From positions 1-35,211 of the forward strand of contig JANYLJ010000048.1 in the NCBI GenBank assembly GCA_025357945.1: DNA of 35,211 nt, read 5' to 3'. The stretch comes from Gemmatimonadota bacterium. Its GTDB lineage: Bacteria > Gemmatimonadota > Gemmatimonadetes > Gemmatimonadales > GWC2-71-9. How positions within the stretch are numbered: the first letter of the stretch is position 1; each line of letters begins with the position of its first letter. The notes under the pieces are model-generated. The model was not told the DNA's origin. It searched no databases and worked only from the letters and a program-made list of their open reading frames with translations. Both the position numbers and the translations under genes were made by a program. Positions 1 through 27,370 of this stretch are shown piece after piece.

Positions 1-733
1 TCCTGGCCCGACGCGGTGAATTGCTGGGTGGCATTGGCCACCAAGCTGACCGGGTTGGGAGTAATGGTGATGCTCGCCAACGCACCTGCTGCGGCAACGA
101 CCGTCACGGAAGCGAAGCCCGAAACACTACCGCTGGTGGCCTTGATCGTCTGGGAGAACGCCCCGGCCGACGCACCCGCGGTAAACAGGCCCGAGCTGCT
201 GTTGATGCTGCCACCGCCGTTTACCACAGACCAAGTGGGCGATATGGGAACGATATTGCCGTTGGCGTCCCGGCCCGTGGCCGCAAATTGGACGTTGGCA
301 CCGGTCGCGAGGGAGACTGGGTTGGGCGCGACGCTGATGCTCGCGAGCGTACCCGCAGTAACTGATACCGAAGCAAAGCCCGAGACACCGCCACTGGTCG
401 CCTGGATCGTGTTGGCGAATGTTCCCGTCGACACGCCGGCGGTGAATAGGCCAGCGCCGCTGATGGTTCCGCCACCCGCCACTACGGACCAAGTGGGCGC
501 CGGCGATATTGGAACGACATTACCATCGACGTCCTGGCCGTGGCAACGAATTGCTGAGTGGCACCGACCGCCATGGTGTTGGGGTTGGGTGTGACGGTGA
601 TGATCGCCAACGGACGCGGTCCGGTGGGCCCGCTGTGTTCGCACGACGCGAGCAGCAGCACACTGAGCGGGACCATGACAGCGAGTCGCGCGGTGAGCCG
701 GGCGCGACCAAGAATAGACGTCGAATGTTTCAT
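1..733 (-). CDS. Bacterial Ig-like (Big) repeat lipoprotein, partial, frameshifted
   Basis: The gene reads leftward off the window edge, so its 3' end is missing. It starts at ATG 733 (MKHSTS), 7-8 nt after an AGGTGG ribosome site; an adjacent ATG at 736 is the alternative. A basic N-terminus and hydrophobic stretch end in a lipobox (LLAS-C, Cys31), so a lipoprotein is expected. About 88-residue repeats follow, each opening with a variant of ITVTPNP and containing QQF(V/T)A..GQD and a W-SVV-GG-S-GLF(T)AG pattern, as in Big2-type domains of surface proteins. The DNA units repeat every 263-267 nt. Near 538-539 one base is missing relative to the other two units; after it the annotated frame stops within about 20 codons, while the -1 frame continues the repeat perfectly to position 1. 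Either a sequencing error or a real disruption. Role is probably surface structural or adhesive (inference). Confidence 0.75.
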
Positions 734-980
734 CATGAACCCACCTGCAAGAAGAGACGGGGCAACGCGCAAGATTGCGGAGAAAGCGTCACTGGTAGGG
801 AGCGTAGCATCAATGCTGACGACGAAGCGTCCTTGCCAACTTGCACAGGCGGTTCGTCGCTGCCGCCCAACCGGCCGAGCGCTGGCGCTGGACACCGGCC
901 TGCACAGCTTCCCGCCCCGCCGTCGGCGGTCGGTCATTTATGATTGTGTCGCGCTTCTACCCTTACCCGTCGGCACGGCC

Positions 981-2642
981 ATGACCGAATTCTCCTCGTC
1001 TTCCGTAACCACTTTGCCACAGCCCACCGGCGGCACGCTGCGAATCCTCATGACGGATGACATCGATCCCGAGGGCGTTGCCGTGCTTGCCGCTGAGCCG
1101 AGCCTCACGGTCGAGGTGGTGCCGACGCTCCCGCCGGCCGAGTTGCTTGCACGAATCGAGCATTACGACGCCCTGGTGGGACGCAGCGCCACGCGCATCA
1201 CAGCGGAGCTGCTCACGCGTGGCCGCAAACTTCGGGTGGTCGGTCGGGCCGGCGTCGGCGTCGACAACATTGCGCTGCCCGAGGCCACCCGGCTTGGCGT
1301 GGCAGTGGTCAACGCGCCCGCTGGCAATACCGTCGCCGTGGCGGAACTCTTTTTCGGCAGCCTCCTGTCGCTGCTACGCCACATCCCCAGCGCCGCGATG
1401 TCGATGCAGGCTGGCCGCTGGGACCGGAGCGAATTCCTCGGTAGTGAACTCTTCGGGCGCACGCTCGGCATCGTCGGCCTGGGGCGGATCGGCAGCGAAG
1501 TGGCCCACCGTGCCAAGGCCTTCGGTATGACGGTTCTCGCCTACGATCCCTACCTGCCGGCAGAGCGGTTCCAGGCATTGCAGGTCACCCGCGCCGACTC
1601 ACTCGATGAACTCCTCCGCAGCGCGAGTATCGTGACCCTGCATGTGCCGCTGACCGAGGAAACGCGCGACATGATTGGCCGCCGGGAGCTGACGCTGCTC
1701 GCCAAGGGAGCGATCGTGGCCAACCTCGCCCGCGGCGGGATCGTCCAGGACGAGGCGCTGCAGGAGGCCCTCCTCGCTGGCGGCCTGCGCGGTGCGGTGC
1801 TGGATGCGTTTGCGATTGAACCGCTGCCGCCCGACGCGCGCCTGCGCCGGATGCCCAACGTGGTCCTCACGCCGCACATTGGCGCGGCGACCGCGGAAGC
1901 CCAGCGCAATGTCGCGGTCGACGTCTGCGTCGCGGTGCGAGACCTGCTCCTCCATGGCCAACTCTCGCGCTCGATCAACCTTGCAGCGGTGGACCATCTG
2001 TCGTGGGATGCACTCCAGCCGGCACTGCTGCTGGCCCGCCGGGCGACCGCTATCGGCCGCGCACTGTTGGCAGACCGCGGCGTCCAGATCGCCCGGCGGA
2101 TTACGGTCCGGGTCGGGTCAGAACTTGCCGGCGCAAGCGGGGCCCTGTTGTCATCCGCCGCACTCGGCGTCATGGAGAACGTGGTCGAGATCGAGCGCCT
2201 CAATCTGATCAGCGCACGGGCACTGGCTGAAGCTCGCGGTATTGAACTGGCCCTCGCCGAAGCACTGGCCGAGGACCATCCGTACGCCATTCAAGTCGTC
2301 GTCGGCGGCGGGATGGAGACGATAACGGTCGGCGGTATCGCTCCGCTCGGCGAAACCCCACGCCTCACCCAGATCGGCGCATTCTCGGTCAACGTCGCAC
2401 CACGGCAAACCCTGGTGATCCTCACCAACCGCGACGTACCCGGCGTCATCGGCCACGTCGGTACGCTGCTCGGCGCGGCCAACGTCAACATCGCGGAGTA
2501 CCATCAGGCTCGCCTCATCCAGGGCGGTGACGCGCTCGCCGCGATTGCGGTGGACGGCACCGTCGATGAGAGCCTGCGCCGGGCACTCCTCGATCTCCCC
2601 GATGTGCGCTCCGCCACGGCCGTGGATTTTCGTCGTTCGTGA
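981..2642 (+). CDS. serA: D-3-phosphoglycerate dehydrogenase, long (ASB + ACT) form
   Basis: Oxidises 3-phosphoglycerate to 3-phosphohydroxypyruvate with NAD+, the first step of phosphorylated serine synthesis in the cytoplasm. The product is 553 residues, near the usual 525-530 of the long form. Visible are the Rossmann motif GLGRIG (about residues 166-171), the signature NLARGGIVQDEAL and the catalytic His in TPHIGAAT (about His299). A middle allosteric substrate-binding-type region follows, and a C-terminal ACT domain from about residue 477 (LVILTNRDVPGVIG), which normally binds serine for feedback inhibition. ATG 981 is chosen because the conserved N-terminal strand (LRILMTDDI) begins just after it; ATG 1050 would cut that strand. 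The open frame extends further upstream but without family similarity. First gene of an operon with serB 22 nt downstream. Confidence 0.95.
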   Translation: MTEFSSSSVTTLPQPTGGTLRILMTDDIDPEGVAVLAAEPSLTVEVVPTLPPAELLARIEHYDALVGRSATRITAELLTRGRKLRVVGRAGVGVDNIALPEATRLGVAVVNAPAGNTVAVAELFFGSLLSLLRHIPSAAMSMQAGRWDRSEFLGSELFGRTLGIVGLGRIGSEVAHRAKAFGMTVLAYDPYLPAERFQALQVTRADSLDELLRSASIVTLHVPLTEETRDMIGRRELTLLAKGAIVANLARGGIVQDEALQEALLAGGLRGAVLDAFAIEPLPPDARLRRMPNVVLTPHIGAATAEAQRNVAVDVCVAVRDLLLHGQLSRSINLAAVDHLSWDALQPALLLARRATAIGRALLADRGVQIARRITVRVGSELAGASGALLSSAALGVMENVVEIERLNLISARALAEARGIELALAEALAEDHPYAIQVVVGGGMETITVGGIAPLGETPRLTQIGAFSVNVAPRQTLVILTNRDVPGVIGHVGTLLGAANVNIAEYHQARLIQGGDALAAIAVDGTVDESLRRALLDLPDVRSATAVDFRRS

Positions 2643-2664
2643 CGTCACTGGCGAATGTTCTGCC

Positions 2665-3315
2665 GTGAAATTTCCGCGATACGCCTCAGTCATTCTCGAT
2701 GTCGATTCGACGTTGTGCGGGCTCGAAGGCGTGGACTGGCTGGCGGAGCACCGGGACGACGCGATGGCTGCGGAGTTTGCCAAACTCACGGCCCGGGTGA
2801 TGGCAGGCGAGATCCCTCTGGAAAGCATCTATGCCACGCGGTTGGATCGGATCAGGCCCGGTGCCGAGGAACTCGCCGCGCTGGCTGAGGCATACCGGGA
2901 CGCGATTGCAACCGGAGCCGCCGGGACGGTCCGAAACCTTCGTGCCGCGGGTGTGAGGATCCATCTGGTGAGCGGCGGGCTGCGCCAGGCCATCCTGCCA
3001 CTGAGCCGTGACCTGGGTTTCCTCGACACGGAGGTCCATGCCGTCCCGGTGGTCCTGGACTCCCACGGCCGCTACGTTGATTTTGATCGGACCTCGCCTC
3101 TCTGCCGAACGGCGGGCAAGTGCGAGATTGTCACAGCGATCGAGCTGCCCAAACCCCGGCTGGCCGTCGGGGATGGGGTTACTGATGCCGCGTTGCGTGC
3201 GGTTACCGAGGGCTTTGCCGTGTTCACTGGTTTCGTTCATCGCCAATCCGTGGTAGACCTCGCGCAGCACGAGTGCCGCTCCTTCGCCGACCTCCTGGAT
3301 CTTGTGCTGCCATGA
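2665..3315 (+). CDS. serB: Phosphoserine phosphatase (HAD family)
   Basis: Hydrolyses O-phosphoserine to serine, the last step of the pathway begun by the preceding gene. The 216-residue product is a minimal HAD-type phosphatase: motif I DVDST (Asp12 nucleophile, Asp14) near the N-terminus, motif II LVSGG around residue 100, and motif III GDGVTD (Asp170, Asp174). The cap region contains the acidic and Arg-rich segment expected for phosphoserine binding. No ACT domain is fused, unlike E. coli SerB. GTG 2665 is the best start because it lies directly before the conserved first strand; upstream in-frame sequence overlaps serA and has no similarity. The stop overlaps the start of the next gene (ATGA), so translation is probably coupled. 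Confidence 0.9.
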   Translation: MKFPRYASVILDVDSTLCGLEGVDWLAEHRDDAMAAEFAKLTARVMAGEIPLESIYATRLDRIRPGAEELAALAEAYRDAIATGAAGTVRNLRAAGVRIHLVSGGLRQAILPLSRDLGFLDTEVHAVPVVLDSHGRYVDFDRTSPLCRTAGKCEIVTAIELPKPRLAVGDGVTDAALRAVTEGFAVFTGFVHRQSVVDLAQHECRSFADLLDLVLP

Positions 3316-4427
3316 GTAATGCAGTTGCGGGACGCTTCTTCGTTCCCGGCCCAACCGAAGTCCGTGCCGAGATCCTCGCCGCCATGACCGGCCCGATGAT
3401 ACCGCACCGGAGCAAAGCGTTCGAGTCACTCTTCGGCACCCTGCAAGTGGGACTGCGTGAGGTATTCGGCACGTCTCGAACGGTGATCGTGAGCACGTCG
3501 TCAGCCACGGGGATGATGGAAGGCGCGGTACGGTGTGCTCCCCCGGGAGCCGTGCTGGCGCTCGTCAACGGGGCTTTCTCGACGCGTTTCGGCGATATCT
3601 CAGCAGCGTGCGGCCGTGAAACGCAGCTCATCCAGGCACCACTCGGCGCGGTCGTGCCGCTGGAGCAGATCGAGGCCGCGCTGGCCGCGCGCCCGTTCGC
3701 GGCGGTGCTGGTGGTCCACTCGGAGACTTCCACCGGTGCCCGGAGCGATATCCGCGCGGTGACCGACCTGGCTCGCCGCTATGGCGCGCTCGGCCTGGTG
3801 GACAGCGTGTCGGGCATCGGTGGCATCCCGCTGATGTTCGACGAGTGGGATCTCGACTTTGTGCTCACCGGCTCGCAGAAGGCTCTGGCGTTGCCACCGG
3901 GGCTGGCGTTCGCCGTGGCCTCGGAGCGCTATCTGCGGCATGCGGCCACGAATCCGTCGCGGGGCCGCTATCTGGATATCGCTGAGTTGCAGGGCTTCGC
4001 AGAGCGCAACCAGACGCCGGCCACCCCGGCGCTCTCGCTCATGTACGCTCTCGAAGCTCAGCTCGAGACCATCCGGGCGGAAGGAATGACGGCACGATGG
4101 GATCGCCATGCTGCCATGGCCGCAGTCATGGCGGAGTGGGTGGCCGGCGCCAAGGCGCGCTGTGGCCATGCGCTCGGGATTCTCGCTGGAGAGCACTGTC
4201 GCTCCGAGACCGTCACGGCCGTCCTCTTGCCGGAATACCTCAAGGGCCCTGAGGTTGTCGCGGCGGTATCCACCAAGGGGTATACCCTCGGCGAAGGCTA
4301 CGGCTCGAGCCGAGCGCGCACCGTCCGGGTCGGCCACATGGGCGACCACACGGCCGAAGGACTCAGCAACTTCCTGGCGGTCGTGGACCAGGCATTGGGT
4401 GAGGTGGCGCAGCACAACCGCGGGTAA
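3312..4427 (+). CDS. Class V PLP aminotransferase (alanine-glyoxylate / serine-pyruvate type), probable phosphoserine transaminase role
   Basis: A 371-residue fold-type I, class V aminotransferase. The N-terminal FVPGPTEV motif, the (I/M)PHRSKAF segment and the PLP lysine in GSQKALALPPG (Lys190) are typical of the alanine-glyoxylate/serine-pyruvate branch rather than classical SerC. It overlaps serB by 4 nt (ATGA) and ends the serA-serB operon. Context therefore suggests it performs the glutamate-dependent conversion of 3-phosphohydroxypyruvate to phosphoserine, the step otherwise missing here. Family members of this branch are known to be broad in specificity. A glyoxylate or pyruvate transaminase role is the alternative. 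The family assignment is strong; the physiological substrate is inferred only from position. Confidence 0.85.
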   Translation: MSNAVAGRFFVPGPTEVRAEILAAMTGPMIPHRSKAFESLFGTLQVGLREVFGTSRTVIVSTSSATGMMEGAVRCAPPGAVLALVNGAFSTRFGDISAACGRETQLIQAPLGAVVPLEQIEAALAARPFAAVLVVHSETSTGARSDIRAVTDLARRYGALGLVDSVSGIGGIPLMFDEWDLDFVLTGSQKALALPPGLAFAVASERYLRHAATNPSRGRYLDIAELQGFAERNQTPATPALSLMYALEAQLETIRAEGMTARWDRHAAMAAVMAEWVAGAKARCGHALGILAGEHCRSETVTAVLLPEYLKGPEVVAAVSTKGYTLGEGYGSSRARTVRVGHMGDHTAEGLSNFLAVVDQALGEVAQHNRG

Positions 4428-4485: not shown

Positions 4486-5886
4486 TCAGAATACGACCCA
4501 GCTCAACAGGTACAGCGTGTTGTTGTCCTTCGCATTCCGGCCAAATCCATCGTAGTTCGTGCCGCCGCCATTGAACTTGTTATAGAGAACGTACTGGAGT
4601 TCGAACCGCGTGTTGAGCCAGGGAAGCGCCGACAACTCGAAGACGAGCCCGTTGCTGTTTGGACTGCCGGTTGCGCTGCCGCCGACGGCGCCCGTCGGAT
4701 AGCGAAGCGGATCGGTCGTGCCGGAGGTCGCGAAGTAGCCCAACGTGACACCCAGTCGTGCCGGGGTGTAGATCGACGCATTGATCCGGAACGTGTTGAG
4801 CGTGTTGCTGAGGTTGGCCGCTGCGCCGGACGCGACGTCGGCGTCGAGCTTCTGCTTTTCATGGAGATACAGGGCGTGGGCGGTGAAACCGCCCTTGCCT
4901 TCCCCGATAGGTACCTCGTACTGCGCATCGAAACCAACGTCCGTAAATCGGTTCCGGGCACCGATAATTCCGGTCGGGAACATCGACGTGCTCATCCCCA
5001 ACGTGCCAACCATCAGGTCCTGGCGCCCAAGCTGCTGATGCCAGAACGCTCGCCAGTAGGGCGCGACGCCGTGGATCGTATTCGTGGACGCCGAGTCGGG
5101 CAGCGGATTGCCGCCCTGCACCGCCGACCGGTACACGCTGAACTCGCCGTAGAGATGATTGTCCCAGAAGCCGTAGGCACCGAGGCCAGCCACCTGCTGG
5201 CCGAGCTGCCCGTCGAGAACGGTTGCGGCGGCCGGTGACGGAGCCACCGCGGACGAGGCATACGGAAAGCCCCAGGCCGGTACCGTGTTCCAGACATCCT
5301 GCACGGTCGGGTTGTTGTTCAGCGTCACTCCGTAGATCACGGACTTGGAGCCAAACGTGGTCCGGTTCGCGTATCGGATGTCGGCATTGTCCATCCCGAT
5401 GCTCCCGGCCACCGGGTCGTATGTGACCTGGAGAAATGTGCCGATGCGTGGCGTAATCGCCTCACCGAAGAACACGCTGACCTGCTGCGGGAATTGCACG
5501 TTGCCGTTCTGGGTTCCCGGGAGCGTCTTGCTCGTCTGCGTGAGCGAGGACATCACCATGGCCGACACCGGCGGAATGAGATCGAGCTTCAACGATTCCC
5601 GCTTGCCGCTGTCGCCAGCCCGGACGACCTGGAGCGCGGTCAGCGTGTAGCCGTTCAGCTTGAACAGGCGGCCGAACTGCGTGAGGTGCGGGAAGGCCGT
5701 ATGGCAGGCGCTGCAGGCGAGGCCAGTCTGTCGCGAAAAACTGGGAATGCTCGCATGCGACCGGACGCTCGCAGTGTAATTTCGCAGATACCGGCGCACG
5801 GCGTCGTTGAGCCCGTCGGCGCGGAGGGCGGGCACCAGGAGCAGGGACGGGAGCCCGAGATACAGCAGGCGACTGAATACCTTCAT
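4486..5886 (-). CDS. Monoheme cytochrome c-outer membrane barrel fusion (Cyc2-like), copy 1
   Basis: The 466-residue protein has a signal peptide (first about 22 residues). A short N-terminal heme domain follows with a single CSACH motif (Cys58, Cys61, His62) inside IPSF(S)RQTG-L-C--CH---P-L--FGR-FK-NGY. The remaining roughly 380 residues are rich in alternating polar/aromatic strands and end in Trp-Val-Val-Phe, the aromatic C-terminus typical of Bam-inserted barrels. This one-heme-plus-porin plan matches Cyc2-type fused cytochrome-porins, which pass electrons across the outer membrane in iron oxidisers. The Cyc2 likeness rests on remembered family patterns. A paralogue lies at 7022-8209. Start ATG 5886 follows a GAGG ribosome site; upstream codons lack a signal. 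A small membrane-protein gene lies 96 nt upstream on the same strand. Confidence 0.75.
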   Translation of the reverse strand: MKVFSRLLYLGLPSLLLVPALRADGLNDAVRRYLRNYTASVRSHASIPSFSRQTGLACSACHTAFPHLTQFGRLFKLNGYTLTALQVVRAGDSGKRESLKLDLIPPVSAMVMSSLTQTSKTLPGTQNGNVQFPQQVSVFFGEAITPRIGTFLQVTYDPVAGSIGMDNADIRYANRTTFGSKSVIYGVTLNNNPTVQDVWNTVPAWGFPYASSAVAPSPAAATVLDGQLGQQVAGLGAYGFWDNHLYGEFSVYRSAVQGGNPLPDSASTNTIHGVAPYWRAFWHQQLGRQDLMVGTLGMSTSMFPTGIIGARNRFTDVGFDAQYEVPIGEGKGGFTAHALYLHEKQKLDADVASGAAANLSNTLNTFRINASIYTPARLGVTLGYFATSGTTDPLRYPTGAVGGSATGSPNSNGLVFELSALPWLNTRFELQYVLYNKFNGGGTNYDGFGRNAKDNNTLYLLSWVVF

Positions 5887-5982
5887 GGGGACCTCTGCGA
5901 CTGAAGACGCCTGCACGGAAGGGAAATTTCCTGCAACCTGCGTGACTGCCATGAATAAGCACCGCCGCCCATGAAGAAACCA

Positions 5983-6426
5983 TTAAGGCCGCATTAAGAA
6001 CGCTGCGCCTCCACCGTAGATAAGGCCAACCAGTCCACCGTAGATAACGTGTCCCGCGAGGCTACCGACGAGCAGCAGCAGGTCGCCGCGGGAGAAGGCG
6101 CCGGCGCCGACCAGCGGCATGAAGGTGAGTTGCGCAACGATGAAAACGGCGCATCCGTACAGGATGCCGCGAACGAGTGGCGGGCCCGGCAACCGATTGA
6201 CCAGCCATCCCGCGTAGATCACCGCCAACCCGACGCCAACGAGGACGTGAATGGCCCAGCCGACCGCGGGCCAGATCGGCAGGTAGGCGGTCGCGACCGC
6301 CAGGAAGCTGCTGAGCAAGCTGCCGACGGCCAAGCTGGGGAGACCGAGGAAGGGTTCCACCAGCCAGAACGTGGTGACGGCCGCGGTCGCAACGATTCCG
6401 GCGACGCCAGCGCGCGTGGCATTCAC
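5983..6426 (-). CDS. Small four-helix integral membrane protein (DUF6789-like)
   Basis: A 147-residue, almost entirely hydrophobic protein with about four transmembrane segments separated by short Gly/Pro-containing turns. It resembles small membrane proteins of the DUF6789 type, of unknown function; this family link is tentative. The GTG start at 6426 is chosen because a strong GGAGGAGG ribosome site lies 5 nt upstream (6432-6439, minus strand). The longer open frame to 6486 has no other good site. It probably shares a transcript with the cytochrome-barrel gene 96 nt downstream, so a link to the redox cluster is possible but unproven. Confidence 0.7.
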   Translation of the reverse strand: MNATRAGVAGIVATAAVTTFWLVEPFLGLPSLAVGSLLSSFLAVATAYLPIWPAVGWAIHVLVGVGLAVIYAGWLVNRLPGPPLVRGILYGCAVFIVAQLTFMPLVGAGAFSRGDLLLLVGSLAGHVIYGGLVGLIYGGGAAFLMRP

Positions 6427-6431
6427 GGCAG

Positions 6432-6439
6432 CCTCCTCC
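6432..6439 (-). promoter_or_regulatory. Strong ribosome binding site deciding a GTG start
   Basis: The minus-strand sequence GGAGGAGG lies 5 nt before GTG 6426. It fixes the start of the small membrane protein well inside the longer open frame. Confidence 0.7.
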
Positions 6440-6543
6440 ACGAGAAAACGATGGCAGGAAAGGGATAGTATACATTTGGCGACCAAGAAAAGAGTCGCCT
6501 TGGGTAACGCGCCGTTCCCTACCCCAGCGACCCGGAGGCTCGA

Positions 6544-6969
6544 ATGGCGGATCGCTTGACGTTTTCATCCTGCTTACGCATACGACATTTCGCGGCGGCA
6601 TCGATGCTCGCCGGGGCGCTCATCGCACCCGCGCTCGGGGCCCAACAACCGGCCGACACCAACAAGGCATTTCGAGACAGCGTCGCGGTTCGGTTGAAGG
6701 CAATCGACGCCGGGCGCCACCTGTTTCACGGCGAAGGAACCTGCTTCGCCTGCCATGGGCCGAACCTCGAGGGAACGGCCATCGCCCCGACCCTCCGGGC
6801 GCACAAATGGCGCAATGGCGACGGCAGCCTGGCGATGATCATGCGAGTCGTCCGGAACGGGGTCCCGAATACCGTGATGATCAGTCATCCGGGCGGAATC
6901 AATGATGCGGAACTCGCCGAAGTCACGGCATACGTCTGGGCCGTCAGCCGAGGCGCAGTGAAGCCATAG
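6544..6969 (+). CDS. Periplasmic class I cytochrome c
   Basis: A 141-residue exported monoheme cytochrome. A signal peptide covers about residues 1-33 (cleavage near LGAQQ). The heme motif CFACH lies at Cys67-Cys70-His71, and the likely axial methionine is Met112 in VPNTVMISHPGG. Length and spacing fit a small soluble class I electron carrier. It is the only plus-strand gene of the redox cluster, lies between the two cytochrome-barrel genes, and is convergent with the second of them. Start ATG 6544 has a GGAGG site about 8 nt upstream. A natural guess is shuttling electrons between the barrel proteins and the bc complex or an oxidase; the partner cannot be told from sequence. Confidence 0.85.
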   Translation: MADRLTFSSCLRIRHFAAASMLAGALIAPALGAQQPADTNKAFRDSVAVRLKAIDAGRHLFHGEGTCFACHGPNLEGTAIAPTLRAHKWRNGDGSLAMIMRVVRNGVPNTVMISHPGGINDAELAEVTAYVWAVSRGAVKP

Positions 6970-6977
6970 CACCGTGA

Positions 6978-7004
6978 CTCCCGCTTCGGCTCCGAGCTCG
7001 GGAG
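6978..7004. terminator. Candidate bidirectional hairpin between convergent genes
   Basis: CTCCCG (6978-6983) pairs with CGGGAG (6999-7004), with a further TCGG/CCGA pairing inside. It lies in the 52-nt gap between the plus-strand cytochrome c and the minus-strand cytochrome-barrel gene. There is no T-tract on either side, so terminator function is uncertain. Confidence 0.35.
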
Positions 7005-7021
7005 CGCGCTGGGTGGCCGTA

Positions 7022-8209
7022 TCAGAACACAATCATCACCTGGCCGATGAGGCCATGTTGCTTCAGGCTTCCCGGACCCTTCGGTTGATCGAGCGTGTAC
7101 TCGAGCGCGAATCGCAGATACTCCGGCATCTCGACCGGCAGCACGCTCCCCAACACGAACCTGGTATTGCCCTGGTCCGCTACGCCGGAGTTCGGGTTCA
7201 CGACTTCGTACCGGCCGAACAAGGTCATCCTGCTCTTCGGGAGCGTATACCCGCCGTACAGCCAGAAACCGTTTCCTTTCACCGACGTCGTCGTGAACGC
7301 CGAACCAGCCGCGATCGGCAGGTCAGTGTCCTTGGCATATGCATAGCCCGCCATGAGTTCGGCGGGGCCGAAGATCTTGTTCGCGGTGATCGCCAGGCGG
7401 GTGAACTTCGATGTGAGCGTGGGCGCGATCGGATCGGCACCTATGATGCGGCCGAGGTAGGCGACCGCGGTGAAACCTGAACCTTGCTTGTCGAAGATGA
7501 ACTGGTCGATCAACGCGACGTCCTTTGCGACCCGATTACCCGCCCCTGCGATCATCACTCCATTGAGAACCTCAGCTGACAGTCGGTTCCTTCCCTTCAC
7601 CCAGAATGCTTCGAGGCCGAGCTGAGGGCTGTCGAACACGAATGGGAGGGCGGATGTGAGCTGGTTTCCGAGCGGGGTAGGCATGGCGAGGCCGGTCGGC
7701 CGGTCGAATCCCGCAACCGCACCTTCGAGCAACCAGTGCATCTGGCCAACCCGGAACCCGGCATAATTCTCCGCCTGGCCCCAGACGCCGCTCACGTGGT
7801 TGACCAGCTCCGTCCCGCCTTCGTTATGTGCAAACTCGAGGAACGCGCCGAAGTGCTTTCCGATCGCACCACCGGCCCAGAGCGTGGCGTTGTCGAGCTC
7901 GAACTGGCTCGTCGTTGGCGGCGATCCTTCCGTCTTGTTGTAGGCGTACTGCACGGCCATGCGGGCGGCGATGTAATCGCTGACATTCGCTACCTCCTGT
8001 TTTTCGCCGATCTCTTCCGGCAGGCGGTAGCCGGCCCACTTGAACTTGAATCCGAAAGTGTTGAGGCGGGGCACCGCGGGCGAATGGCAGCCGTTGCAGT
8101 TCATGTTGTATTTCCGCGCCCAGGCGGGAATCGCCGCCGTCTTTGCGGGAAGGCCGAACAGGAACAGGGCCAGCGCGAGCAGTCCGCCCAATAGTATCGT
8201 CTTGCGCAT
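7022..8209 (-). CDS. Monoheme cytochrome c-outer membrane barrel fusion (Cyc2-like), copy 2
   Basis: The 395-residue product has a signal peptide (residues about 1-25). A heme domain with CNGCH (Cys38, Cys41, His42) follows, in the context IPAW(A)RKYNM-C--CH---P-LN-FG-KFK--GY, then a long beta-rich region ending in Met-Ile-Val-Phe. The heme-domain context is clearly shared with the gene at 4486-5886, though the barrels have diverged. Start ATG 8209 has a GGAGG site 6 nt upstream. It follows a small cytochrome c gene by 75 nt and is the last gene of a Rieske/cytochrome b-c/cytochrome c run, suggesting one operon joining the quinol-cytochrome complex to an outer-membrane electron conduit. It could accept electrons from outside (e.g. 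Fe(II)) or donate them outward; direction cannot be read from sequence. Confidence 0.75.
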   Translation of the reverse strand: MRKTILLGGLLALALFLFGLPAKTAAIPAWARKYNMNCNGCHSPAVPRLNTFGFKFKWAGYRLPEEIGEKQEVANVSDYIAARMAVQYAYNKTEGSPPTTSQFELDNATLWAGGAIGKHFGAFLEFAHNEGGTELVNHVSGVWGQAENYAGFRVGQMHWLLEGAVAGFDRPTGLAMPTPLGNQLTSALPFVFDSPQLGLEAFWVKGRNRLSAEVLNGVMIAGAGNRVAKDVALIDQFIFDKQGSGFTAVAYLGRIIGADPIAPTLTSKFTRLAITANKIFGPAELMAGYAYAKDTDLPIAAGSAFTTTSVKGNGFWLYGGYTLPKSRMTLFGRYEVVNPNSGVADQGNTRFVLGSVLPVEMPEYLRFALEYTLDQPKGPGSLKQHGLIGQVMIVF

Positions 8210-8284: not shown

Positions 8285-8620
8285 CTACGAACGCGGCCTG
8301 ATCGCAAGCTCGTGCACATACTTGGCAACGGCCGCCATTTCGGCCGGCGTCAGTTTCCCCTTGAAGGGCTTCATGTCGTCGCCCTTGCCCTTGGTCAGGA
8401 CCGTCACGATCGAGTCCTCGGTGTGCTTGGCGATGAACGCGGCGTCGAACGTCGCGATCTTGGCAAATCGCTCTTTCATGGACTTGGGCGGCGTACCCAG
8501 CACGCCATGACATTTCTTGCAGGTCGCTTCGTACAGCGTCTTGCCGTCTGGTGTCTGCGCCGCCGACCGCTGTACCAGGCCGGCGACGATCAGGAATAAA
8601 CCGATTGCGATGCCGCGCAT
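8285..8620 (-). CDS. Small periplasmic cytochrome c
   Basis: A 111-residue monoheme cytochrome with a signal peptide of about 21 residues (LVQRSAAQ), heme motif CKKCH (Cys34, Cys37, His38) and a likely Met83 ligand in GDDMKPFKGKLT. The C-terminal helix (LTPAEMAAVAKYV) is typical of class I cytochromes c. Its start lies 2 nt beyond the stop of the cytochrome b-c fusion gene, so the two are almost certainly cotranscribed. It is well placed to be the mobile carrier between the bc complex and the cytochrome-barrel protein encoded next (inference). Confidence 0.88.
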   Translation of the reverse strand: MRGIAIGLFLIVAGLVQRSAAQTPDGKTLYEATCKKCHGVLGTPPKSMKERFAKIATFDAAFIAKHTEDSIVTVLTKGKGDDMKPFKGKLTPAEMAAVAKYVHELAIRPRS

Positions 8621-8622
8621 GA

Positions 8623-10122
8623 TCAGGGCCTCTCCGTTCGTTTCACGGGTTCAGGGAAGGTGTCGTAGAATTCCTGCTTGGCCGTCGCCCAGTTGGGCCC
8701 GCGCAACGACGCCAGGTACCGGGTGATCTCCTCGATCTCTTCGTGCGTCAGCTTGGGCGGACCGACGCTCGGCATCTTGGAATTGGGGTGAAACCGGGCG
8801 GGGTCTTCCATGAAGCTGTGCATCCAGGCCGCCGAGTGGCGCAGGCCGACCTCGGTCAGGTCCGGAGCGTTGGGCGTGTCGGCACTGGTGTCGGGCTTCT
8901 GGTCGCCCAGGGCGTGACAGGCGCCGCAGTTACGCGCCTTGTACATCGCGCGCCCGGCGCGCTCGATCGAGCTGAGCGGGCGACCGACCTCCGTGGCCAC
9001 TGCGGTCGGCGGTTCGCTGCGGAAGGCGGCCCCCAGCAGCAATGCGACGCCGGCCAGCGTGACGCCCATGGTGATCGCCGCGGCAGGCCGGTGACGCAGC
9101 GAGCGCATGCTGCGCCGGTCAAAGAACGGCAGCGCCAGCAACACCAGCACCAGGGCCGCGGGCACGCCGACCGCCACCACGCTTTCCAGCGAGCCCGGCA
9201 CCAGCTTGAGCAGCTGGAAGAACGGCAGGAAGTACCACTCGGGCAGTGGTACGTAGGTGGTGTCGGTCGGGTCGGCGGGCGCCTCAAGGCCGGCGCCCGA
9301 GAAGTGCGCCAGCAACACCAGCACCACGATCACCAGCGTCGCGACTACCAGGTCCTTGGCGATGATGTCGGGCCAGAAGCGGACGCCGGCGCGCTTGGAA
9401 CGCGCGTAGCGATCATGGTAGTAGCTGGCGTACGCCGGATCATCGGTGCGCGGCGGCGGCTCGGCGTCCAACACCGCGGTTCGCGGCGCAATCCCCTGCC
9501 GGATCACCTGCACCAGATGCAAGAGCGCAAAGAACCCGAGCAGAACCGGGAAGAGCAGCACGTGCAGCGCATAGAAGCGCGTCAGGGTCGCCGCGCCGAG
9601 CTGAGTGCCACCGCGTAACAATTTGACGAGGGCGCCGCCAATCAGCGGGGCGGTACCGGCAATGTTGGTGCCGACCTGCGTAGCCCAGTAAGCCTTCTGG
9701 TCCCAGGGCAGCAGATAGCCGGTGAAACTGAACCCGAGCACGATGAACAGCAACACGACCCCGAGCACCCAGTTGAGCTCGCGCGGGTACTTGTACGCGC
9801 CCATGCTGAAGACGCGGATCATGTGCGCCAGGACCAGCACCACCATCGCCGACGCGCCCCAATGGTGCACGCCGCGCAACAGGGCGCCGCTCATCACGTT
9901 GTGTTCGAGATAGCGGATGCTGTCGTAGGCGTGGTCGGGTGATGGGGCGTAGTACATGCCCAGCACGATCCCGGTTACCACTTGCACGGTGAACACGGCC
10001 AAGGTCGCGCTGCCGAGCGTGTGCCACCAGGTCAGCCCGCCGGGCACCTTGCGGTCGACCAACGTTTCGCGAATCGACGCGATGTCGATCCGTTCGTCGA
10101 TCCAGCGTCGCATGGCGCCCAC
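8623..10122 (-). CDS. Cytochrome b fused to C-terminal cytochrome c (bc complex)
   Basis: A 499-residue membrane subunit of a quinol:cytochrome c reductase. The complete cytochrome b portion (both the b6-like and subunit IV-like halves, residues 1 to about 370) carries heme b ligands His86/His100 in helix B (HX13H) and His187/His202 in helix D (HX14H). The quinol-site PEWY motif lies at about 294-297. A cytochrome c domain is fused at the C-terminus: CGACH (Cys399, Cys402, His403), with Met450 (NSKMPSVG) as probable ligand. The gene starts at GTG 10122, one nucleotide past the Rieske stop; ATG 10113 is an equally possible start. The fusion replaces a separate cytochrome c1. With the Rieske protein it forms the catalytic core of the complex. 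Confidence 0.93.
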   Translation of the reverse strand: MGAMRRWIDERIDIASIRETLVDRKVPGGLTWWHTLGSATLAVFTVQVVTGIVLGMYYAPSPDHAYDSIRYLEHNVMSGALLRGVHHWGASAMVVLVLAHMIRVFSMGAYKYPRELNWVLGVVLLFIVLGFSFTGYLLPWDQKAYWATQVGTNIAGTAPLIGGALVKLLRGGTQLGAATLTRFYALHVLLFPVLLGFFALLHLVQVIRQGIAPRTAVLDAEPPPRTDDPAYASYYHDRYARSKRAGVRFWPDIIAKDLVVATLVIVVLVLLAHFSGAGLEAPADPTDTTYVPLPEWYFLPFFQLLKLVPGSLESVVAVGVPAALVLVLLALPFFDRRSMRSLRHRPAAAITMGVTLAGVALLLGAAFRSEPPTAVATEVGRPLSSIERAGRAMYKARNCGACHALGDQKPDTSADTPNAPDLTEVGLRHSAAWMHSFMEDPARFHPNSKMPSVGPPKLTHEEIEEITRYLASLRGPNWATAKQEFYDTFPEPVKRTERP

Positions 10123-10123
10123 G

Positions 10124-10705
10124 CTATACCCCGACCTGCTCGGAGACGCCGAGCCGGAAGTCGCGGTAGTTCACGAACACGGCGCTGTCGCGGATCTCCA
10201 CTTGCAGTTCGTCCAGCGGGCGGGGTGGTGGACCCGCCAGCACGGCGCCGGTCTTGATGTCGAACTGGCCCCGATGGCAGGGGCAGGCGAAGGTCTTCAG
10301 CTCCTTGTCGTAGTAGTAACTGCAGCCGAGGTGGGTGCAATGCCCGTTGTAGGCCTTGAACTTGGCGCCATCCTCGGTGTAGAGCCACACGGCGTTCTGG
10401 GTCCGGGACTCGACCCAGGCATCGCTCTGGTTCTGGATAAAATCGAGCCGGATCGGCACGGCGATGTCGAGCAGCGCGATGTCTTCCGCCACCTTGATCC
10501 AGGTCGCCGGTTGCGCCTTGGCCAGCGCCGGCGAAACAAACGAACGGAGCACCGGAATCCCCACCAGCACGCCGCTGATCGTGGCACCAATGCCGCTGAT
10601 CCAGCGCAGGAACCGCCGGCGGCTGAAAAGCACGTCGTCGAGAACCGCCGGCGCCTGCTCGGGTACTCCGTTCGTCACGGCTGCACTCCCTGTCGGGTCG
10701 CCCAT
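10124..10705 (-). CDS. Rieske iron-sulfur protein of the bc complex
   Basis: A 193-residue protein with a twin-arginine export/anchor segment (SRRRFLRW, about residues 28-35, then a hydrophobic helix). The C-terminal Rieske domain binds a 2Fe-2S cluster through CTHLGC (Cys123, His125, with disulfide Cys128) and CPCH (Cys141, disulfide Cys143, His144). The GPPPRPL turn that closes the cluster-binding domain follows. It transfers one electron from quinol to the cytochrome c domain of the next subunit. It is the first gene of the minus-strand run that continues into cytochrome b-c, cytochrome c and the cytochrome-barrel gene. It diverges from lacI; the roughly 250-nt gap must hold its promoter, but no convincing -35/-10 pair was seen. 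Confidence 0.93.
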   Translation of the reverse strand: MGDPTGSAAVTNGVPEQAPAVLDDVLFSRRRFLRWISGIGATISGVLVGIPVLRSFVSPALAKAQPATWIKVAEDIALLDIAVPIRLDFIQNQSDAWVESRTQNAVWLYTEDGAKFKAYNGHCTHLGCSYYYDKELKTFACPCHRGQFDIKTGAVLAGPPPRPLDELQVEIRDSAVFVNYRDFRLGVSEQVGV

Positions 10706-10868: not shown

Positions 10869-10954
10869 TTCCATCTGGTAACTCGTTCGCCACGCGCGTT
10901 CTCGTGGGGCGGGTGCCCGATCCGGTCCGTTACGCTGAACCTGGAAGCGTCGAA

Positions 10955-12022
10955 TTGACGGTGACTATCAAGGATGTCGCTCGTGACGCCGCGGTTTCCA
11001 TCGCCACGGCCTCCCGGGCACTCAACCGCACCGACCTGGTGGCCCCCCAGACCCGGGACCGGGTCCGAGAAGCTGCAGCCCGGCTGCATTACACCCCGCA
11101 CGGCGGGGCCCGCAGTCTCATCACCAGACGGACCCACACCATCGGTGTGCTGCTCCCCGACCTTTACGGCGAGTTCTTCTCCGAAGTGATGCGCGGCATC
11201 GACCAGACAGCCCAGCGGGCGGGATTTCAATGCATCGTCTCCAGCGCCCGCCATAGCGGCCCGACGCTCGAGGCGGCGCTCCGCGCCATGCGGGGCCGGG
11301 TCGATGGGCTGGTCCTGATGTCCCCAGAGTTCACGCGGGAGCTTTCGACGCGAACCCTCCCGGCTGGGTTCCCGGTTGTCCTGCTGAACTGCCCGCCCTC
11401 CGAAACGCCGCACGACAGCCTGAATATCGAGAATTATGATGGCGCCTACAGCATGGTCCGACACCTCGCCGGCCTGGGACACCACCGAATCGCCATCCTG
11501 ACCGGCGCCGCGGGGAACTTCGACGCCGCCGAACGCCTCCGCGGGTATCGTGCCGCTCTCCTCGACGCGGGCCTTCCCTCGCCAGCCGAGTTGGTCGTTG
11601 CCGGCGACTTCAGCGAGGCGGCTGGCGAAGCGGGCGCCCGGCAGCTGCTCCAGCTCGCCGAGCGCCCGACCGCGATTTTCGCCGCCAACGACGGCATGGC
11701 GATCGGCGCCCTGCTCGCCCTGCGCGAGGCCGGGCTGCGAGTGCCTGAGGATATCGCCATCGGGGGATTCGACGACATCCCGATGGCGCGCTACGTCGAC
11801 CCCGCACTTACGTCAGTTCACGTGGATATCAGCGCGCTCGGGGAGCGCGCCGTAGCGGCACTGCTCTCGGTGCTTGGGCACCCGGCGCGCCGCGAGTTCA
11901 CCCGCGAGACCGCGGCGACGACCCTTGTCGTCCGTAGGTCCTGCGGCGCCCGAAAAGCCGAAAGCGTGCCCCCAGTCAGACCGAGCGCTGCCCGTAGTTC
12001 ACCTTGGAGGGAGGTCGTATGA
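10955..12022 (+). CDS. LacI-family transcriptional regulator of the glucan operon
   Basis: A regulator of about 355 residues. The N-terminal helix-turn-helix has the family signature [20 protein letters not shown] followed by the hinge region. A periplasmic-binding-protein-like effector domain follows, with [27 protein letters not shown] and [15 protein letters not shown] motifs. The start is uncertain. TTG 10955 is preferred because GGAAG (10943-10947) sits 7 nt upstream and it gives the usual short N-terminus; GTG 10961 and ATG 10904 are alternatives. The last four bases overlap the start of the TonB receptor (ATGA). Two operators lie about 90-120 bp upstream. It probably represses this operon until a beta-1,2-linked glucose oligomer is present (inference). 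Confidence 0.92.
12006..12014 (+). promoter_or_regulatory. Strong ribosome binding site of the TonB receptor
   Basis: GGAGGGAGG lies inside the 3' end of lacI, 4 nt before ATG 12019. It supports that start over the in-frame ATG at 12004 and suggests high receptor synthesis. Confidence 0.7.
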
Positions 12023-15000
12023 AGAATCGAGGACTGCAGCACCACCTCAGCCGGTTCCTGGCCATCGGTGTGGCACTGTTCGCCGTGTTGACGGTCGGTC
12101 CGGTGTCCGCCCAGACCAGCACCGGAATCATCCGCGGGACGGTCACCGCCAACGACGGCAAACCGGCCGCCGACGCAGAACTCATCGCGAAGATCATCGC
12201 CACCGGCGCGGTTCGCACGACGACGAGTCGCCCGGATGGGTCCTACATCCTCCCCGGCCTCGTCCCGGCGGTCTACGAATTGACGGCTCGCCGCATCGGA
12301 AGTGGAGCCCAGACCCGCCAGGTGGTGGTGCAGATCGGCGCCACCGTGGTGCAGGACTTCGCCCTGGAGACGAGGACAGTGCAACTCGCCGAAATCTCGG
12401 TTGTCGCGGCACCCAACGCCGAGACCCGGACCTCCGAGGTGGCCACGAACGTGAGCCCGGCCCAGATCGACAAATTGCCGACCACGAGCCGCAACTTCCT
12501 CGACCTGGCGGTGCTCGCCCCCGGCGTGACCGTGACTGAGGATCGCATCGGTGGAGCGTCGGTGACGTTCCTTGCTGGCGGCCAGACCGCGAACGCAGTC
12601 AACATCTTCATCGACGGGACCAGCCTCAAGAACGATCTCACGGCCGGCGGCGTCACCGGCCAGGACGCGAGCAAGGGAAATCCGTTCCCCCGGAACGCCA
12701 TCCAGGAGTACCGGGTCATTAGCCAGAACTTCAAGGCCGAGTATCAGAAGTCGTCCAGCGCCATCATCACGGCAACCACGAAGTCGGGGACCAACGTCTG
12801 GCACGGCAACGCACTGTTCGGCTATCAAAATAAGGGCCTGCTGTCGCTCGACACCTTCCAGCTTCGGTCGAAGTTCGTGGCGGACAGCATCGCCCAGAAG
12901 AACGGAACGGTCACCACCTTCAAGCAGCCCGACTACAGCCGTTCGCTGGTGTCACTCAGCGCTGGCGGACCAATCCAGCGGGACAAGCTCTTCTTCTTCG
13001 GGTCCTACGAGGGCAACTACCAGAACCGATCGAACCTGGTGAACTTCGCGAACATTCCGAGCGGCTTCCCGGCGCTCGATTCGGTTAATCTCCTACAGTA
13101 CAACGGCAATTTCGCATCGCCGTTTCGTGAGTCGCTCGTGTTCGGCAAGCTGAGCTACACTGCCGACCCGAAGTCTTCGGCGGAGTTGAGCTTCAGCAAC
13201 CGTTCCGAAACGGACGTCCGGGATTTTGCCAATGTGAATTGCCCCGGTGCGATGTGCGCCTTCAGCGAGGCGGTGAACTTTCGCCAGAACGTCTCGATCG
13301 GGCAGCTCAAGTACAATCGATTCGGAGATGCATGGTTCAACGAAGCGAAGGTGGATTTTTCGCGGTTCCAGCGGAATCCGAGCCCCGACACGCCGGGACA
13401 GCCCCTGCGGGACTATCAGTTCAACAACTCGGATAACCTGATCGGCAGCAACGCGAGTACCCAGAACTACATCCAGCAGCGGCTCGGCTTCCGGGATGAC
13501 CTCACGTACACCGGCTTCCATGCGGCCGGCGAACACGTCATCAAGGTCGGTACGAATTTTGACTTCGTGAAGTACAACATCCACAAGGGCAATGACGAAA
13601 CGCCGAAATTCCTCTATCACGCGGACGGCGGTTTCAATTTTCAGACGCCCTACCAGCTGGCGTACGGCACCGGGAATTCGGACCTCAACACCAGCAACAA
13701 TCAGATCGGTGCCTACGCACAGGACGACTGGAGTCCGAGCTCACGACTGACGCTCAACCTCGGCGTGCGCTGGGATTTCGAGTCCCACATGTTCAACACG
13801 TCCTACGTGACGCCCCAGAACGTGATTGACACCGTCACCCGCTACAACAGCCAGCTCATTAATCCGATCGACCCGGCCACCTATTTCTCCACCGGGACCA
13901 ACCGCAAGCCGTTTTACGGAGCCGTTCAGCCCCGGCTCGGATTCTCCTTCGCGCTCGACAAGCAGAGCAAGACGACCATCTTCGGCGGTTTCGGCATCTA
14001 TTACGATCGCTCGCTCTTCGACGTGTCGGTGGACGAGCTGCTCAAGCTCTCCCATCCGACCTACTTCATCAACTTCGCCGCGCCCGGCGTTGCGCCCACG
14101 GCCGGACAGGTGGCCTGGAGCAACACCTTCCTCACCACCGATCACGCGGTGCTCGACTCCCTGGTTCATACGGCAGGCAAGCCGGAGGCCTGGCTGATCG
14201 CCAACAACGCGAAGGTGCCCAAGTCGCAGCAGTGGAATGCCGGCATTCGGCGCGTGCTGGGGAACTTCTCGGTCGCGGCCACCTACGCGGCGGTGCGGGG
14301 CGTTGACCAGCTGGTGCTCAACTGGGCCAACTTCGGCCTCAACCGGAACGGCTCGTGCTGCACCAGCTTCGACATCAGCCAGCACGGATTCCAGAACATC
14401 ATCTACTCCACCAACGATGCGAAGACCTGGTACGATGCGCTGGAGATTCAAATTGACCGCCCCTATCGGCGCTTGACCAACAAGGGGATCGGCTGGGGGG
14501 CCGGCCTGGCCTACACCTACGCGGTCCGCTCGCTGCAAGGAACGGACGGCCTGGGCGACGAATTCTCCTTCCCCAACGCGCTCAATATTCCGAAGCATTC
14601 GTCCAACGACGAGAAGAACCGCATCGTGGCCAACTGGATCCTCGACGTTCCGTACCTGTTTGGCATCCAGTTCAGCGGCCTCCTGACACTGGGGGGCCAG
14701 TACAAGCTGGATGTCGGCTGCCCGGGGCGCTTCTGCGGTTTCGGCACCACCGGGAATACCTTCGAGCCCGGGGGCTTCACCGTGCCCGGCACGTTCCCGT
14801 ATCGGCGAGTCGATCTCAGGCTTCGCAAGGACTTCCCCAACATCGGACGGTCCGCGCTCGGCGTGACCCTCGACATTTTCAACGCGACCAACCGGAACAA
14901 CCTCGGGTGCTACAACGTCGGTGACCGGGGGACGACGGCATCGCCCAATCCGGGTTTCGGTCAGCCCGGCTGCGTGGTCTCCGACGCCCGCCGCTTCCAG

Positions 15001-15024
15001 ATCGGCGCGGAATACACCTACTGA
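12019..15024 (+). CDS. TonB-dependent outer membrane receptor (CarboxypepD_reg + plug + barrel)
   Basis: The 1001-residue product has a signal peptide cleaved near residue 31 (PVSA-Q). A carboxypeptidase-regulatory-like domain (about 32-115, [12 protein letters not shown]...[10 protein letters not shown]) is followed by a plug domain (about 130-240, including the [12 protein letters not shown] segment) and a long barrel ending in EYTY. This layout is the large Oar/SusC-like form of TonB receptors. It probably imports oligosaccharides across the outer membrane using TonB-ExbBD energy. Substrate is inferred from neighbours to be beta-1,2-glucan fragments; no SusD-type binding protein is encoded nearby. 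It overlaps lacI by 4 nt and is separated from the next gene by 65 nt containing a stable hairpin, the only break in an otherwise overlapping gene chain. Confidence 0.93.
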
Positions 15025-15036
15025 TCCAGCTCGCCC

Positions 15037-15059
15037 CGGGGCACCGATCCGGTGCCCCG
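15037..15059 (+). other. Intercistronic hairpin after the TonB receptor gene
   Basis: CGGGGCACCG (15037-15046) and CGGTGCCCCG (15050-15059) form a perfect 10-bp GC-rich stem with a 3-nt loop, 12 nt after the receptor stop. No T-tract follows. It may act as a 3' stabiliser of receptor mRNA or a partial terminator that lowers expression of the downstream genes. Confidence 0.65.
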
Positions 15060-15089
15060 CGGCGATCCCACTGCCGGGGCGATCCGACC

Positions 15090-16523
15090 ATGACTGCACC
15101 AGCGAGACGCCTCGCCCCGTCGTTGAACCTGCTCCTCGGCGCCATCGTCGCGTGCAACGGCTCCGTCGCGACGACGGCGCCCTTGCCGCCGACGCCGCGG
15201 GTGCAGGCGCTGCTCGACACGGTGGAGCAGCGCACCTTCGCGTTCTTCTGGGAGCGCACCGACGATCGCACCGGGCTCACCCCGGATCGCTGGCCCACGC
15301 TCTCCTTCTCCAGCATCGCCGCTGTCGGCTTCGCGCTCACCGCCTATCCGATTGGCGCGGAACGGGGCTACGTCAGTCGGGACGCCGCGGCCGAACGGGT
15401 ACTCACCACGCTGCGCTTCTTCTACCAACTTCCCCAAGGGCCAGCGGCTGCCGGCACCGGCGGCTACCAGGGTTTCTTCTACCACTTCCTCGATCCAGTC
15501 TCCGGCGTCCGCTATCAGACGGTTGAACTCTCGACCGTGGACACCGCGTTGCTGCTGGCCGGTGTGCTCTTCTGCCAGCAGTACTTCGATGGCGCCGGCG
15601 GGCTCGACCCGGCGATCCGCGCCTACGCCGATTCGTTGTATCGCCGCGTCGACTGGGCTTGGGCACAGCCGCGCCCGCCGCTGGTCACAATGGGCTGGTC
15701 CCCTGAGAGCGGCTTTCACCCGCTTGACTGGCGCGGGATGAACGAGGCGATGCTGGTCTATCTGCTCGCCCTCGGCTCACCCACCCACCCGATCGCCGCC
15801 GAGGCGTGGGACGCTTGGACGTCGACCTACACCTGGGGCGATTTCTACGGTCAGGCCCATGTCGGCTTCGCACCACTCTTCGGACATCACTACTCGCAGG
15901 TCTGGGTGGATTATCGCGGGATTGCCGATGCGTACATGCGCGGCCGGGGTATCGACTACGCCGAGAATTCCCGCCGGGCCACCTACGGTCAGCGCAGTTA
16001 CGCCATCGCCAATCCCGCTGGGTGGAACGGGTATGGCGCCGACATCTGGGGCCTCAGCGCATCGGACGGGCCGGCCGATGTCAGCCATGACGTGAATGGC
16101 CGGGCCCGCCGCTTCTTCACCTATGCGGCCCGCGGGGCTTCGTACACCGAGATCCGGGACGACGGCACCATCGCCCCCACCGCGGCCGCGGGTTCGATCG
16201 CGTTCGCGCCGGAAATCGTAGGCCCCGCGCTCGTGGCGATACGAGAGCGGTACGGTGATGGCGTCTTCGGCCAGTATGGTTTTCTCGATGCCTTCAACCC
16301 GACGTGGGTATGGCCGGATGTGCCGCTGCAGCACGGGCGCCTCATCGCCGGCAAGGGATGGTTCGACCTTGATTATCTCGGGATCGACCAGGGGCCGATC
16401 GTGGCGATGATCGCCAACTACCGCTCGGAACTCGTCTGGAAATACATGAGGAAGAGTCCCTACCTCATACAGGGACTCCGCCGTGCTGGATTCCGGGGTG
16501 GCTGGCTGGATCAGGCGCCGTGA
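15090..16523 (+). CDS. GH144/glycoamylase-like lipoprotein, probable endo-beta-1,2-glucanase
   Basis: The 477-residue protein carries a probable lipobox near Cys22 (GAIVAC). It spans the whole length of the PF10091 'glycoamylase-like' family: LTAYPIGAERGYVSR, GFFYHFLDPVSGVR, ELSTVDTALLLAGVLF, RVDWAWAQ, LLALGSPTHPI, the segment ending in ANPAGWNGYGADIWGLSASDGP, DGTIAPTAAAGSIAFAPE and GIDQGPIVAMIANYRS. Characterised members in CAZy family GH144 cut beta-1,2-glucan internally, releasing sophorose and short oligomers, through an (alpha/alpha)6 barrel. The GH94 and ABC genes downstream support this specificity. Start ATG 15090. The stop overlaps the GTG start of the sugar-binding protein. Family membership is strong; exact cleavage mode (endo or sophorose-releasing exo) is not decidable here. 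Confidence 0.88.
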   Translation: MTAPARRLAPSLNLLLGAIVACNGSVATTAPLPPTPRVQALLDTVEQRTFAFFWERTDDRTGLTPDRWPTLSFSSIAAVGFALTAYPIGAERGYVSRDAAAERVLTTLRFFYQLPQGPAAAGTGGYQGFFYHFLDPVSGVRYQTVELSTVDTALLLAGVLFCQQYFDGAGGLDPAIRAYADSLYRRVDWAWAQPRPPLVTMGWSPESGFHPLDWRGMNEAMLVYLLALGSPTHPIAAEAWDAWTSTYTWGDFYGQAHVGFAPLFGHHYSQVWVDYRGIADAYMRGRGIDYAENSRRATYGQRSYAIANPAGWNGYGADIWGLSASDGPADVSHDVNGRARRFFTYAARGASYTEIRDDGTIAPTAAAGSIAFAPEIVGPALVAIRERYGDGVFGQYGFLDAFNPTWVWPDVPLQHGRLIAGKGWFDLDYLGIDQGPIVAMIANYRSELVWKYMRKSPYLIQGLRRAGFRGGWLDQAP

Positions 16524-27353: not shown

Positions 27354-27370
27354 GAAGGAAGGGCATCTCG

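Follow-up and report, generated by a model that had tools for sequence, protein, structure and literature searches.

Cyc2-type outer-membrane cytochromes, such as Cyc2 of Acidithiobacillus ferrooxidans, Cyt572 of Leptospirillum and Cyc2-PV1 of Mariprofundus (PMC8406198, PMC7029218), are at least 365 amino acids long and combine an N-terminal one-heme domain with a C-terminal porin-type barrel, homology between subgroups being limited to the N-terminus. Keffer et al. (2021) recognized the family by a PXFAR[Q/K][T/Y] filter, one CXXCH, a PXL motif, length and a 16-strand porin; an iron-oxidation role for homologs outside the known iron oxidizers is an acknowledged open question (PMC8406198). The rus and pet operons of Acidithiobacillus encode a Cyc2-kind protein, a cytochrome c and a bc complex for which reverse operation has been proposed, with the cyc2 and bc1 genes in separate operons. 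The complex that Zetaproteobacteria express highly alongside Cyc2 is bc1, not alternative complex III (PMC7029218). Cytochrome b and Rieske genes (petB/petC) have already been reported beside multiheme conduits as well (PMC13264449), namely porin–cytochrome complexes (PCC) likened to PCC4, which are built from separate porins and multiheme cytochromes (PMC13264449; PMC5566968).

Here we analyze a contig of 35,211 nucleotides (JANYLJ010000048.1, assembly GCA_025357945.1; hereafter the window) from a Gemmatimonadaceae bacterium of soil or groundwater, whose genome comprises 3.0 Mb at 99.8% completeness. The window encodes two Cyc2-like cytochrome-porins, P0001 and P0002. The main new point is an operon that joins P0002 to bc genes and lies outside the coordinates of an initial annotation, which covered both cytochrome-porin genes (positions 4486-8209) and missed the rest of the operon (8285-10705). 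In the open-access literature searched, outside which many papers lie, we saw no account of bc genes sharing an operon with a one-heme cytochrome-porin. Cyc2 homologs as such have already been reported from Gemmatimonadota metagenome-assembled genomes (MAGs; PMC9769843, PMC9671151, PMC13055281), contrary to the annotation's view of a lineage not known for outer-membrane electron exchange.

Operon organization of P0002

P0002 (395 residues; 7022..8209, minus strand) is encoded in one operon with cytochrome c, cytochrome b-c fusion and Rieske genes, all located upstream on the same strand and nearly end to end. Adjacent to P0002 is the gene of a one-heme periplasmic cytochrome c (111 residues; 8285..8620), followed by that of a cytochrome b6-type cytochrome b with a fused C-terminal one-heme cytochrome c domain (499 residues; 8623..10122) and by a Rieske [2Fe-2S] protein gene (193 residues; 10124..10705), likely the first of the operon. 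The bc proteins matched the Pfam families Rieske, Cytochrome_B and Cytochrom_B_C. The Rieske protein has intact CTHLGC and CPCH ligand boxes, and reading of cytochrome b located both bis-His heme b pairs (H86/H100 and H187/H202) and the PEWY motif, as in bc1/b6f-type quinol:cytochrome c oxidoreductases; in acidophilic Acetobacteraceae, by contrast, the bc1 complexes are deranged (PMC10715153). Searches of the host genome, from which all statements on its gene content derive, detected an alternative complex III (ActB/C/D/E-like genes) and one aa3-type oxidase encoded away from the P0002 operon, and returned no match for RuBisCO. Given the presence of alternative complex III, the bc complex beside P0002 is probably a dedicated second one.

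Two peptide patterns located 12 P0002-type loci in 84,980 genomes, and a profile recovered the type in 17 of 395 Gemmatimonadota genomes, distributed over 11 genera; the named relatives come from Gemmatimonadaceae or Gemmatimonadota MAGs and one Nitrospirota MAG. Rieske and cytochrome b-c genes adjoin the P0002-type gene in 13 of 18 Gemmatimonadota loci, two of which (L105 and L106) are nearly identical and not independent, and a homologous small cytochrome c gene does so in 16. Gene order varies: in most loci the cytochrome-porin gene stands between cytochrome b-c and cytochrome c, whereas it follows cytochrome c in the window and precedes the Rieske gene in L107. In the Nitrospirota locus L081, the P0002-type, cytochrome c, Rieske and cytochrome b-c genes all fall inside 5 kb. 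Among the exceptions are two informative genomes. In G060, NrfD, a ferredoxin-like protein and a multiheme cytochrome, in which eight CXXCH were counted by eye, accompany the P0002-type gene; in G134 it is found among genes for 16- and 18-heme cytochromes, a porin-like protein, a small cytochrome c and a further Cyc2 homolog, the P0002-type gene, the cytochrome c and a QTG-type Cyc2 homolog (the type of P0001) lying in a row.

Several conduit types thus stand side by side in G134, where a stretch of about 13 kb (L111, 1-13067) encodes 18- and 16-heme cytochromes, a porin-like protein of 493 residues, a cytochrome c, the P0002-type protein, NrfD/iron-sulfur (FeS) proteins and an HFQ-type Cyc2 homolog that presumably resembles Zetaproteobacterial Cyc2.

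Clear orthologs of the bc complex (at least 60%) occur in 9 of the 102 genomes surveyed from the host's family. Their neighbor is P0002 in two genomes (the window's and G075), a P0001-type gene in one (G081, of the window's genus), multiheme cytochromes in five (9- to 16-heme in G076, G082, G011 and G098; a 5-heme module in G087) and the contig end in one (G063). Within the genus, two other genomes have a 10-heme cytochrome in the slot of P0002. The same position is therefore held by conduit genes of different kinds. A search for a 10-heme partner in the host's own genome, which lacked a positive control, gave no match.

Sequence and structure of the two cytochrome-porins

P0001 (465 residues; 4486..5883, minus strand) and P0002 are both real open reading frames with signal-like hydrophobic N-termini, as judged by direct reading. 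Each contains exactly one CXXCH, near the N-terminus, followed by a long beta-rich region that ends in Phe, as the initial annotation had described; six-frame translation of the window yields exactly two occurrences of its heme-context motif, and none was present in 300 codon-shuffled windows. The heme-binding motif is CSACH in P0001 (residues 57-61 counted from the ATG at 5883; 5701..5715) and CNGCH in P0002 (residues 38-42; 8084..8098), the latter invariant within its clade. Both stand in the context PX[FW][AS]R[Q/K][T/Y]..C..CH..P.L found in the Cyc2 family, P0002 with one residue more before P.L, and both proteins exceed its minimum length. In P0001, the Pro of PXL follows the heme His by four residues (CSACHTAFPHL). 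CXXCH, which was part of the collecting pattern, is kept in every one of the 58 proteins aligned from the three groups under study. Heme attachment and an outer-membrane location are predicted for both proteins. MtrAB/PCC conduits consist of a separate multiheme cytochrome and a large porin; neither P0001 nor P0002 has this arrangement, and P0002 unites porin and single heme in one polypeptide. Sequence searches of Pfam, NCBIfam and the PDB with the two proteins, singly or as profiles, assigned no family; weak matches to Magnetochrome and a cbb3 cytochrome (E 0.2) were not trusted. No relatives of either protein were found on viral contigs, and none of P0002 on plasmids.

The initial annotation had described P0001 and P0002 as two diverged copies. 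BLASTP aligns them at 26% identity over 114 residues (E=1e-7), covering the heme domain and the region just past it, with no significant match in the rest. A tree of cytochrome-porins, built by a quick method that warned of long branches, places them in different clades, which rules out duplicate copies and marks two separate subfamilies. The P0002 clade, which has no name, comprises proteins of Gemmatimonadota and a few of Nitrospirota; it received top branch support, with the Nitrospirota protein inside it. Its hallmarks are PAWARKYN.NC..CH.PAVPRLN..G..FKWAGYR in the heme domain, where CH and PXL are separated by one residue more than in P0001, and R.G..H and GFDRPTG in the barrel. The candidate second heme ligand also differs: a barrel His (His158 in P0002) is present in 15 of 15 aligned members of the P0002 clade, whereas QTG-type proteins have no invariant second His and show a Met in 19 of 23.

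The AlphaFold2 model of P0002, computed from 11 sequences, reached a predicted local distance difference test score (pLDDT) of 69.6 and a predicted template modeling score of 0.73, and contains 16 strands, the number expected of a Cyc2 porin. Its best matches among solved structures were OprO (Z 24.8, root-mean-square deviation 3.1, 302 residues) and OprP (Z 24.4), the porins named for Mariprofundus Cyc2-PV1 by Keffer et al. (PMC8406198). Other porins rank within 1 Z unit of these, so the match shows the fold and not a specific relation. Strands 5 and 6 of the model are separated by a gap of 38 residues, the position at which classical porins carry their constriction loop. His158 lies at the start of this loop, followed by GFDRPTG (approximately residues 158-172; 7694..7738), and may meet the heme as a second ligand or line the pore.

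A further Cyc2-like clade (L030-L051), with the signature C.LCHNP.P.L..FG..FA.NGFR....E.PRDT, is widespread in the host's family, and Cyc2-like N-terminal domains (E <= 1e-15) occur in 40 of 296 Nitrospirota genomes (L161-L180).

Proposed role and direction of electron flow

The analysis shows the protein architecture, the conserved operon, the 16-strand P0002 model, an apparently intact quinone site, the aa3 oxidase and alternative complex III. The most likely role is electron uptake, probably from Fe(II), with both direction and substrate inferred. We give an even chance to the full proposal that P0001 and P0002 are outer-membrane one-heme cytochrome-porins of the Cyc2 kind, and that P0002 and the bc genes form one electron-transfer unit taking up electrons, most likely from Fe(II). 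The conserved linkage to a quinol:cytochrome c oxidoreductase supports the outer-membrane electron exchange suggested by the initial annotation, which seems to be coupled directly to respiration. A donor outside the cell, in all likelihood Fe(II) in solution, would enter the pore and reduce the N-terminal heme, which would pass electrons to the 111-residue cytochrome c in the case of P0002 and perhaps to a 141-residue cytochrome c encoded beside P0001. From cytochrome c, most electrons would flow downhill to the aa3-type oxidase and some would be driven in reverse through the b-c/Rieske complex to the quinone pool, in parallel with proposals for Acidithiobacillus (the A. ferrooxidans scheme) and Zetaproteobacteria. 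Unlike in Acidithiobacillus, the cytochrome-porin and bc genes share one operon in the host. Such uptake would supplement a heterotrophic life.

A more specific proposal, which we hold a little less firmly, is that proteins of the P0002 clade are cytochrome-porins of a separate kind, which partner a dedicated bc complex at the outer membrane. A single operon would in that case encode the whole route from donor to quinone through two one-heme proteins and the bc complex, in a slot interchangeable with multiheme conduits or a Cyc2-like protein of another clade, and His158 would be the second heme ligand. P0002 differs from described Cyc2 proteins in this operon, in its invariant barrel His and in an extra residue before PXL.

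Several observations weigh against these assignments. Each protein departs from the exact filter motif by one substitution (PSFSRQT in P0001, PAWARKY in P0002), and we therefore call both Cyc2-like and do not file them as Cyc2; the exact motif is present in same-clade relatives (PGFARQT in L012, PAFARKY in L111). The extra residue of P0002 falls between CXXCH and PXL (CNGCHSPAVPRL). Its heme domain was modeled with low confidence (pLDDT about 40-50), and the model of P0001, derived from a mixed alignment, was unusable at pLDDT 38 and set aside; the barrel prediction proposed by the initial annotation thus succeeded for P0002 only. No bc genes were present near the P0002-type gene in three other Nitrospirota loci examined, one of them on a short contig. 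Finally, Cyc2 isoforms such as Cyc2B of A. ferrooxidans have been implicated in ferric iron reduction (PMC10715153), which bears on the direction of flow.

The chief rival, which we consider doubtful, is the same conduit in reverse, with quinol feeding the b-c/Rieske complex, cytochrome c and P0002, which would deliver electrons to Fe(III), Mn(IV), humics or another cell at low O2. This direction accords with an apparently intact quinone site in a complex that naturally runs from quinol to cytochrome c, and with a host that looks heterotrophic (no RuBisCO match, sugar-degradation genes in the window). Related bc operons adjoin 10- to 16-heme cytochromes and porin-like proteins, one relative pairs the P0002-type gene with an NrfD/FeS/multiheme module, and Cyc2B provides a precedent. 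A Rieske-type complex, however, delivers high-potential electrons, which is unfavorable for Fe(III) oxides at neutral pH, and those Cyc2-kind proteins that have been validated oxidize Fe(II). Less probable still is that P0001 and P0002 take up electrons from something else than Fe(II), such as Mn(II), reduced humics, a mineral or another cell, each suited to its own donor or potential; this would fit their separate clades and different candidate second ligands, and Keffer et al. left room for further Cyc2 functions (PMC8406198), but none of the named donors has positive evidence and the predicted substrates of a fused one-heme porin are small and dissolved. That both are solute porins with a structural or protective, non-respiratory heme is very improbable: the single heme and the match of the barrel to solute porins would fit, but the invariance of CXXCH (itself a collecting criterion) speaks against it, and it leaves the recurrent association with genes for cytochromes and a quinone complex unexplained.

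An operon that ties the P0002-type protein to a quinone-linked complex and is kept through rearrangements in two phyla constitutes genomic evidence for respiratory service by Cyc2 homologs of this kind and names the partners of the protein. If the route works, common Gemmatimonadota heterotrophs of soil and groundwater would take an unrecognized part in iron cycling. The operon could also join marker searches, which now rely on a weakly conserved motif.

P0001 and its neighbors

P0001 belongs to the QTG type, carries PSFSRQTGLACSACHTAFPHLTQFGRLFKLNGY after its signal-like N-terminus and ends in VVF. The ATG at 5883 is the preferred start; the open reading frame list used the ATG at 5952, which gives 488 residues. 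Between P0001 and P0002 lies the cytochrome c gene noted by the initial annotation, which encodes the 141-residue one-heme protein (6544..6969); it is on the plus strand, opposite to both and divergent from P0001, and is accompanied by a gene for a DUF6789 membrane protein (5997..6486, minus strand). The cassette of cytochrome c, DUF6789 and P0001 is retained in both closest relatives, with 72-77% identity for the cytochrome c and 68-75% for the DUF6789 protein. Across the family survey, full-length P0001 relatives were found at 47-80%, and cytochrome-porin-like genes, N-terminal matches included, in 57 of 102 genomes.

Over its full length, P0001 is homologous to Cyc2-type cytochrome-porins of Proteobacteria, encoded on plasmids of Caballeronia, Polymorphobacter, an A. 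ferrooxidans strain, Acidiphilium, Ideonella, Methylocystis and Paraburkholderia; P0001 thus groups with porins from taxa that have been linked to A. ferrooxidans Cyc2 (PMC10654088). These proteins, annotated as 'cytochrome C' or hypothetical, mostly match about 90% of its length (68-91% among those of Caballeronia, A. ferrooxidans YQ-N3, Acidiphilium, Ideonella and Methylocystis) at 33-43% identity, share the motifs QTG..C..CH and NNNPT..D.WN, and form one group with P0001 in the tree with high branch support. Genes for c-type cytochromes, usually with one or two hemes, lie directly or closely downstream of the homolog in five of the six plasmid records read, one of which also has a gene for a high-potential iron-sulfur protein (HiPIP) upstream; in the Paraburkholderia record, the cytochrome gene is about 2 kb upstream. 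P0001 instead has the divergent cytochrome c and the DUF6789 gene.

In another genome of the window's genus (G076; L064, 6946-15398), a P0001-type gene adjoins those of 16-, 19- and 8-heme cytochromes and a porin-like protein of 498 residues. On its other side in the window, P0001 is flanked by serine-pathway-like genes (phosphoglycerate dehydrogenase-, phosphatase- and aminotransferase-like; 558-4427). Beside the electron-transfer genes, positions 10904-28459 hold a sugar-use locus, whose genes were named by eye: a LacI-type regulator, a TonB/SusC-like receptor, a sugar ABC transporter, and glycan phosphorylase-like and beta-glucosidase-like genes.

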